Origin: Ilumatobacteraceae bacterium
GTDB taxonomy: Bacteria > Actinomycetota > Acidimicrobiia > Acidimicrobiales > Ilumatobacteraceae
Reading direction: 5' to 3'
NCBI GenBank assembly: GCA_025358075.1
Contig: JANYKU010000046.1
Location: 1 to 64,000 of the forward strand
Length of the DNA: 64,000 nt
In this document: positions 52,579-59,625 of the stretch, piece after piece
How positions within the stretch are numbered: position 1 is the stretch's first letter
Layout of the letters: each line of letters opens with the position of its first letter
The notes under the pieces: generated by a model
Told to the model about the DNA's origin: nothing
Seen by the model: only the letters and a program-made list of their open reading frames with translations
Database searches by the model: none
Program-made: the position numbers and the translations under genes

Positions 52579-53264
52579 GAATGTGCTCCGAGGTAGCCCT
52601 GCGCGGCGGCGCGAGCAAGCGCCGCCTCCTTGGCCCCCGGCGCATCGAGCGGCCCATCGACCAGACCGGCGAACCCGATTGCCACCCTTGCCCCGGCGAT
52701 GGGCACCAGCGGCACATCGGTGGGCACGTTCGGCTCGAAGCGCAACGCAGACCCTGCCGGAATCGCCAGTCGCCTGCCGTATGCGGCCGCACGATCGAAC
52801 GAGAGTCGCGGATTGACCTCGAAGAAATGGAAGTGCGAGGTGATGCTGACGGGCACGTCTGACGTGTTGGTTGCGACGAGATGAACGAGATCCGGCGGAG
52901 TCGACGATTGCCGCGCCGCAGTGATCACCGCCCCCGGAGCATCGGAACCGAGACTGCCGCCACTACCGAACGGGTTGCGCACCACGACCATGCGCGTGCC
53001 ATCATCGAACACGGCCTCGACCTTGACCTCGCGAACGATGTCGACGACCCCCGGCAAGACGTCGTCGGCCGTGAGCACACTCGCTCCTGCGGCTGCGGAC
53101 TCCATCAACCGAGCACCATCGCGCGCCGACTCGCAGACGGTGTCGGCGATCAACGCTGTCGCCTCCGGCACGTTCAGCCGCAGGCCGCGTGCCCGTCGGG
53201 CACGAGCCAATTCGGCCGCGGTGAATATGAGCAACCGATCGCGCTCGGTTGGTGTGAGGCGCAT
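52575..53264 (-). CDS. Urease gamma-beta fusion subunit-like protein
   Basis: From ATG 53264 ([31 protein letters not shown], 229 aa); the track's 53492 lies in the divergent gene. Residues 1-100 are UreA (gamma): [45 protein letters not shown]. Residues about 125-229 are UreB (beta): [46 protein letters not shown]. Fused gamma-beta chains occur in known ureases such as Helicobacter. It is first in the three-gene operon with ureC and the deiminase. Confidence 0.88.
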
Positions 53265-53279
53265 GGACCCCACGCTAAT

Positions 53280-54959
53280 GTCGGCGAGATCAAGCGGTCT
53301 GCGCTCGACAACAAGGTCCTCGTCCGCTTCACGCTCGCGCTCTTCCTCACTGCGCTGGCCGAATGGGCGTTCTTCGTCGCCACACTCGTCTACGCCTTCG
53401 ACCGTGGTGGCTCGCGCTCCGCAGGGTTCGCCTCGATGGCCCTCCTCGCTCCGATTGCCCTGGCGGCCCCCGCCGCGGGCAAGGCCGCGCAATACCAGCG
53501 TCCAGAACGAGTGCGTCTCTTCGCCTACTCAGTACAGACGCTTGCCCTTGGCGTGGCGGCCATCGCCGCGTTCGCCGAGGCTCCTGCAGCGCTGGTGGTC
53601 GGGTGCTGCGCAATCGCGTCGGGTGTGTTCACGTTCCTCGGGCCCGCGTGCGCCGTGCTGTTGCCCTCAATCGTGCGCTCGGCGCGCGAACTGACCGTGG
53701 CCAACCTGTGGGTCGGCTCCTGCGAAAGCGTCAGCACGCTCGCCGGTTCGGCGCTGGCAACACTGCTCCTCGCAATCCACGGACCCGCCCTGGTGCTGGC
53801 GGGCTGTGCCGCGCTCAACCTGGTGAGCACATTGGTCACCGTCCGGCGCAGCGATGCAGGCGGCGCGCCGGCTCCTGCTCCCGACCGAAACGCAACCGAG
53901 TCCGTCGGCGCCGTACGACTGGTCTTCCGCAACATCAGAGCCTTGCGCGAGCGCAAGGGCGCCACCGGAGTGCTCGCCATCACCGCCGGTCAATACGTGC
54001 TCGTGGGCGCATTCGATCTGATCATCGTCGTGCTCGCCAAGGATCAGCTCAGCCTGGGCGAATCGGGTCCGGGCTTGCTGGCAACGAGCGTCGGAGTTGG
54101 CGCGCTGTTCTGCGCACTCACCTCGACGTTCCTGGTTCGGCGCGACCGACTGGGACCGCTGTTGGTCGGTGCGCTTGCCAGCGTCACGGTCGTGTCACTC
54201 GTGCTGGGGATCGCCCCGGCCCTGGCGACGGCACTGGTCCTGCTGCCCGTTGTCGGGTTCAGCCGGGCTCTGCTCGATCTCACCAGCCGCATGTTGCTGC
54301 AGCGAGCCACGCCACCCAACTCGGTCGGCGGGATCTTTGCGGCGATCGAACTGTGTGCCGGCGTCGGGATGCTCACCGGCTCGATCATCACCCAAGTTCT
54401 CATCGCGGCCGACGGCGTCGACGCCGCCTTGATCGGCCTCGGGATCTTCTTCGCCGCGTTGCTGCTGCTGACGATGCGATCGCTGCGTGTCGCCGACGAC
54501 AGCGCCGACATCCCCATCGTGGCGATCAGCCTGCTGCGCCGGATCCCCGCGTTCGCGCTGCTCCCACCGCTGGCGCTCGAGACCGTGGCGCGAGCCGCCA
54601 CCGAGATATCGGTCGTGGCCGGCGAGGTGGTGGTGACCGAAGGCGAGCAAGGAGATCGCTTCTATGCGGTCGCCGATGGGTCGTTCGACGTTGTCACCGG
54701 CGGACGACACGTCGCCACGTCCGAGCGCGGAGCAGGCTTTGGTGAGGTCGCCTTGCTCGCCAACGTGGCCCGCACGGCGACGGTCACAGCGACTCGAGCC
54801 GGCTCGCTCCTGGTCATCCATCGTGTGCCGTTCCTCACGGCCGTCACCGGCTTCGAGCCCTCTCGCCAAGCGGCGTGGGGCACCATCCACACGCTCGAGT
54901 TCGATGGCGAATTCGATAGCGAATTCGAGGTTGACGTCGACGATCCAGGGTCACCTTGA
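53280..54959 (+). CDS. MFS transporter fused to a cyclic-nucleotide-binding domain; start codon unresolved
   Basis: Coding sequence is clear from about 53290: [35 protein letters not shown] opens a 12-segment MFS. After a linker, [55 protein letters not shown] and [21 protein letters not shown] form a cNMP-binding domain (about residues 425-545). The frame has no ATG, GTG or TTG between at least 53163 and the internal Met near 53434, which lies inside a membrane segment. ATG 53278 is out of frame by one base, so a one-base loss after it, or a rare start, is likely. I give 53280 as a nominal boundary. It is divergent from the urease-like operon. Confidence 0.8.
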
Positions 54960-58503: not shown

Positions 58504-59625
58504 ATGACGTCAGCGCCAGTTACCGATCTCGACATGTTCAGCGCAGAAGCCATCCGCAATGCGCGGCAGATCGACGACGATCTCCGCGAGATGGCACCCG
58601 CGGTGAAGCTGAGCCGCGAAGACATCACCATCATCGGACGGCACGAACACGTCAAGCAAGGCCTCGCTGATTGGCGCACGTTCTCGTCGGCGTCGCGGCC
58701 GTTTCACGACCCGAACTCGCCACGACCCGAGATCCTGCTGACCGACGATCCTCCACGTCACACCGATGTGCGTCAGGTCGTTGCCAAGGCGATGTCGAAG
58801 CGGGCGATGGAAAGATGGGAGGCCCGCTTTCGCGACGATGCCAAGCGCATCGTCGACTCGTTGCTGCCGCGCAGCGGCGAGGTGATCAACGCCACCGCCG
58901 ACATCTCCCGTCCCTTCGTGTACAAGGCACTGCCCGATGTGATCGGGCTGCCGGAAGAGGGCCGCGAACACATGGAGGCCTTCGGTCACATGGTGTGGGC
59001 CACACTCGGGCCGACCAACGAGCTCTTCGAAGAGGCGATGACCGACGCCGAGACCGTCGGCGCGTGGATCAGCACGGCGACACTTCGCGACCGGCTTGCC
59101 CCGGACAGCCTCGGCATGTCGATGTTCGAAGCCGCCGATGCCGGGGAGATCACCGACGACGATGCGCTGCTGCTGGTGCAAACGATCGTTGCCGCATCTG
59201 CCGATACGACGGTGATGACCTTGTCGGCTGCCATCCGAGCCTTCTGCGAGTTTCCCGATCAGTGGGAGCTGTTGCGCTCGCGGATGGCAGGGCGGATCAC
59301 GACCACCGACGTCGACATCGACGGCATCACCATTCCGGCGGGCGAGCGGTGCGGGCTGCTGTTCGCCGCGGCCAATCGCGACCCGCGCCGGTGGGACGAA
59401 CCCGATCGCTTCATCGTCACCCGCGATCTCGCCGGTCAGCTCGGCTGGGGGTTCGGGGTGCATCTCTGTGTGGGTCGGCAACTGGCCGTGCTCGAGGCCG
59501 ACGCGCTGCTTTCCGCGCTGCTCGATGCCGTCGACCACTGGGAGTTGGCCGGGGAATCAGAGCCGTGGATGACCACGATCGGCCACGGCCCGGCATCGCT
59601 GCCGGTCAGGTTCCAAGCTGCCTAG
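58504..59625 (+). CDS. Cytochrome P450 lacking the K-helix ExxR motif
   Basis: A 373-residue P450, shorter than the usual ~400. The I-helix is IVAASADTTVM, with Ser where the oxygen-binding groove normally has Gly. The haem loop is WGFGVHLCVGRQLAVLEA (Cys about 322), and ILLTDDPPRHTDVRQVVAKAMS is the usual C-helix region. Between the J-helix (FPDQWELLR) and the following sheet (ITTTDVDIDGITIPAGERC), normal P450s carry about 25 residues including ExxR. Here there are only six or seven (SRMAGR), and no ExxR is present. The frame is intact, so this is an in-frame loss. ExxR is needed for haem-core folding in nearly all P450s, so it may be inactive or do other chemistry. Confidence 0.85.
   Translation: MTSAPVTDLDMFSAEAIRNARQIDDDLREMAPAVKLSREDITIIGRHEHVKQGLADWRTFSSASRPFHDPNSPRPEILLTDDPPRHTDVRQVVAKAMSKRAMERWEARFRDDAKRIVDSLLPRSGEVINATADISRPFVYKALPDVIGLPEEGREHMEAFGHMVWATLGPTNELFEEAMTDAETVGAWISTATLRDRLAPDSLGMSMFEAADAGEITDDDALLLVQTIVAASADTTVMTLSAAIRAFCEFPDQWELLRSRMAGRITTTDVDIDGITIPAGERCGLLFAAANRDPRRWDEPDRFIVTRDLAGQLGWGFGVHLCVGRQLAVLEADALLSALLDAVDHWELAGESEPWMTTIGHGPASLPVRFQAA

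Follow-up and report, generated by a model that had tools for sequence, protein, structure and literature searches.

An Apparent In-Frame Loss of the ExxR Helix in a CYP199-Like Cytochrome P450 Gene of an Ilumatobacteraceae Bacterium

Main Finding

A CYP199-like cytochrome P450 gene in the draft genome of an Ilumatobacteraceae bacterium lacks helix K together with the ExxR motif, a segment present in every relative that we examined, and the remainder of the gene shows ordinary constraint. We consider a recent loss-of-function deletion to be the best reading, with a chance slightly above even. An assembly or strain-level error ranks behind it as possible but rather unlikely, and a functional variant stands third as improbable. 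The window analyzed is a stretch of 64,000 nucleotides (contig JANYKU010000046.1, positions 1 to 64,000 of the forward strand), and the features discussed are as follows.

58504..59625, + strand: CYP199-like cytochrome P450 ORF, 373 aa plus stop (Pfam PF00067, best PDB matches, alignment to the nearest relative, L008)
59194..59211, + strand: I-helix motif A-S-A-D-T-T (A231-T236), Ser232 replacing Gly (homologue comparison)
59266..59277, + strand: codons E255-L-L-R258, helix J end; apparently fortuitous E-x-x-R at the junction, off the ExxR position (spacing and homologue comparison)
59277..59278, + strand: putative deletion junction; 19 codons (57 bp) for the turn, ExxR-bearing helix K, and WDSP absent relative to L008
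59446..59475, + strand: haem-thiolate loop W-G-F-G-V-H-L-C-V-G, residues 315-324; sequence intact, pLDDT <50 for 315-321

The Gene and the Position of the Gap

The ORF runs from an ATG at 58504 to a TAG stop at 59623-59625 and, as a preliminary description of this DNA had stated, is open to its end, with 373 aa and no internal stop. It matches the Pfam p450 profile (PF00067) with an E value of 4.1e-21 and 75.7 bits against a curated cut-off of 22.8. The haem loop, which had been called perfect, is indeed intact (FGVHLCVG), and the haem-ligand Cys322 lies in an FxxGxxxCxG-type sequence, WGFGVHLCVG. The meander Arg302 is retained, and the ExxR that characterizes helix K in the P450 superfamily is absent. 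A Ser in place of the I-helix Gly had also been pointed out; Ser232 is there, but it is not unusual, since the position is Ala in L008 and Ser in L093 and L096. These last two are distant CYP199-like homologues with an intact ExxR and the I-helix sequences PSLETT and PSLDTT, so the substitution recurs in the CYP199-like group.

At the gap, FPDQWELLR is joined directly to SRMAGRITTTDVDIDG, and the alignment to L008 bears out the preliminary claim that the ExxR segment is missing from this place. Sizing the gap against the closest P450, as had been proposed, gave exactly 19 residues between R258 and S259, that is, 57 bp or 19 codons, and the loss is in frame as described. L008 has RDPSLARAAFEESLRWDSP here, comprising helix K with ExxR (ESLR), and the alignment contains no neighbouring indels around the gap after codon 258. 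An E-x-x-R string, ELLR (255-258), stands directly before the junction and had been overlooked. It lies 60 residues before the haem loop, as against 63-66 for a true ExxR, and the same FPDQWELLR occurs in two homologues (L012 and L043) that carry a real ExxR besides, for which reason ELLR reads, on sequence comparison, as an ordinary end of helix J and offers no sign of a replacement ExxR.

ExxR Is Conserved among the Homologues

The closest relative was sought in a collection of 84,980 species genomes, and the nearest one found was L008 (JACPSH010000055.1), a P450 of the groundwater Gammaproteobacteria MAG NC_groundwater_700, with 60% identity in a local alignment over the whole length. In 91 of 98 homologues a pattern search located ExxR at its normal position, 63-66 residues ahead of the haem loop, and the seven that the pattern had missed proved on inspection to have it as well; it is therefore kept in all 98, including six paralogues of the same genome. 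Given this conservation, the gap is, at the level of sequence, far beyond chance variation, and because the segment is present in all other homologues we read the gap as a deletion in the window copy.

None of the homologues searched showed the same gap. The best match in 222 genomes of the family (L094, 41% identity) has ExxR, as do all the matches in the samples of the order, class, and phylum, which are distant only. The best homologue on plasmids reaches 38%, and viral contigs and phages yielded none. The gene is carried by no sister genome, the genomes searched including no other member of the genus. Elsewhere in the same genome neither an intact second copy nor a displaced gene fragment was found, and the paralogues there are at most about 30% identical to the window P450.

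Predicted Structures

Two AlphaFold (AF2) models, one of the window protein and one of the L008 protein, were built from the same 30 sequences. The L008 model is confident along its whole length (mean pLDDT 88.3, pTM 0.88, nothing below 50), and residues 253-261 form helix J and residues 263-276 helix K. In the model of the window protein (mean pLDDT 82.2, pTM 0.77) both helices are absent, and stretches of at least 3 residues with pLDDT <50 occur only at the junction (254-259) and in the haem loop (315-321); for most helices on the substrate side the confidence is good. CYP199 structures are matched by the L008 model with a TM of about 0.91 and an rmsd of 2.5-2.9, and by the window model with a TM of about 0.85 and an rmsd of 3.4-4.0. 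The models thus suggest that loss of helix K destabilizes the haem loop, with the reservation that AF2 confidence is no test of haem binding and that a deletion may by itself lower confidence when the alignment is gapped. ExxR serves to hold the meander and the haem loop in P450s, and the contrast between the two models fits this role. In most P450s, mutating the invariant Cys, or the E or R of ExxR, gives a misfolded, inactive protein (PMC3990721).

The preliminary description regarded absence of the helix as more extreme than substitution within ExxR, and it named orthologues with the helix as evidence that would speak against its view. The helix is indeed missing from the sequence, but L008 is such an orthologue, keeping helix K and ExxR, and the haem loop is predicted to be destabilized, which leaves a functional class of P450s of this kind without support.

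Selection on the Remaining Sequence

Between the window copy and L008, dN is 0.30 and dS about 1.1, a dN/dS of about 0.27, and dN is alike before and after the gap. The two genes have equal relative rates against 15 outgroups (with L094 as outgroup, 24 vs 28 unique changes); relaxed selection on the window copy was rejected on this flat relative-rate test. If the whole branch had been neutral, about 16 in-frame stops would be expected, and none was observed, which would confine any neutral evolution to roughly the final fifth of the branch; the bound is approximate and takes no account of codon bias. For such a phase the relative rates give bounds that vary with the outgroup from 0.15 to 0.45. 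Changes at conserved sites found only in the window copy are P99K, V142A, D304I, H312Q, and P352S, compared with two for L008; they are not numerous enough to carry weight, and L087 and L094 likewise have Gln at 312. Normal constraint outside the gap implies that the deletion is recent, or is not real, or has not inactivated the gene.

Gene Neighbourhood

No redox partner lies beside the P450 gene. Upstream are an MFS/cNMP protein, a hydroxyacid dehydrogenase, a short-chain dehydrogenase, and an ORF without assignment; downstream, on the other strand, are an ORF without assignment, an arylamine N-acetyltransferase, and a dimethylglycine-dehydrogenase-like protein. The MFS/cNMP protein (52881-54959, +) has a major-facilitator transporter domain fused to a C-terminal cyclic-nucleotide-binding domain (PF07690, PF00027), and the first ATG of its ORF is probably too far upstream. 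The ORF directly upstream of the P450 (56826-58421, +) encodes 531 aa and has no Pfam match.

Weighing the Explanations

The 57 bp might be missing from the assembly only, either because reads were wrongly joined or because the assembler picked the variant of a minority strain, the gene of the organism being intact. The draft state of the genome (193 contigs, 92.7% complete), the full constraint on the rest of the gene, as expected of an intact gene, and the existence of a single known sequence of the gapped gene all speak for such an error. It is nevertheless rather unlikely in our judgement: the window contains no N, the genome has neither another copy of the gene nor a detached piece of it, and the L008 segment, compared by eye, shares no more than a few bases with either flank. 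Collapse of a tandem or direct repeat was rejected, because it requires a repeat spanning 59277/59278 and none was found nearby; the assembly collapse at about 59275 that the preliminary description had offered as an alternative is accordingly improbable in its simple form.

A functional P450-like protein, able to fold and to bind haem although helix K is missing, going beyond what is known of CYP157 and with the J-helix ELLR serving as ExxR, would agree with the open frame, the intact haem loop and Arg302, and the dN/dS over the branch. ELLR is merely four residues off the usual spacing, and the ExxR motif itself is substitutable, as CYP157 illustrates (PMC3990721). But ELLR would have to leave helix J, 15-19 core residues would still be missing, AF2 builds neither helix J nor K and its predicted haem loop is lost, the constraint signal may wholly predate the deletion, and the homologues searched provided no second gapped gene. 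We regard such a protein as doubtful, and an enzyme that not only binds haem but is also catalytically active with ELLR in place of ExxR as very improbable. Also very improbable is the loss of monooxygenase activity with another role kept, such as ligand binding: the confidently predicted substrate-side helices would suit it, but neither side of the gap shows a sign of altered selection and nothing in the gene neighbourhood points to such a role.

A recent loss-of-function deletion, which we favour by a narrow judgement, would have proceeded as follows. A CYP199-like P450 gene was probably under ordinary purifying selection until recently, since the constraint on the rest of the gene requires any inactivation to be recent. 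A single in-frame deletion of 57 bp would then have taken out the turn between helices J and K, helix K itself with its ExxR, and four residues after it. Lacking the ExxR Glu and Arg, the protein could not form the Glu-Arg-Arg network by which the meander, where Arg302 remains, and the haem loop are held in place, so that it would misfold or fail to hold haem. The gene would be an early-stage pseudogene whose frame is open by happenstance. Against this reading, the gene has no second inactivating change, and survival of the frame needs a one-in-three chance; for the latter reason the in-frame length of the deletion is weak evidence.

As a recent deletion, this is an ordinary loss-of-function event. 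A functional protein, in contrast, would contradict the idea that the P450 haem region needs helix K and its ExxR to hold together: CYP157 has so far shown only that the Arg of ExxR can change, and here the whole helix would be dispensable. The case also calls for caution with P450 counts made by Pfam match and Cys motif alone, as both would accept this ORF.

Comparison with Known P450s

The best solved-structure matches of the window protein, by sequence and by fold, are the CYP199 enzymes CYP199A2 and CYP199A4 and PbdA, P450s that oxidize para-substituted benzoates. In structural alignment they are 32-33% identical to it, for which reason we call it CYP199-like and not CYP199, and the CYP199 enzymes have helix K. 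L008 shares with the window protein an I helix without Gly and the C-terminal end PWMTTIGHGPA, and it differs in that the 19-residue segment, with helix K and ESLR, is present. It lies among trehalose synthesis genes and an aconitase, and thus has no neighbourhood in common with the window gene.

A shallow search of the literature turned up no P450 that had cleanly lost helix K while keeping everything else. The Streptomyces CYP157 family likewise lacks a canonical ExxR, but it keeps helix K and replaces the Arg (EVLW, EQSLW; PMC3599690; Arg replacement also PMC5018878); with helix K gone, the window protein is not of this type. Svu002 of Streptomyces virginiae IBL14, a CYP105L-like P450 ORF, was reported without an identified K helix (PMC3599690). 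Unlike the window gene, Svu002 also has no recognizable I helix and no haem motif of the standard kind (PMC3599690), and it is probably the more degenerate ORF of the two.
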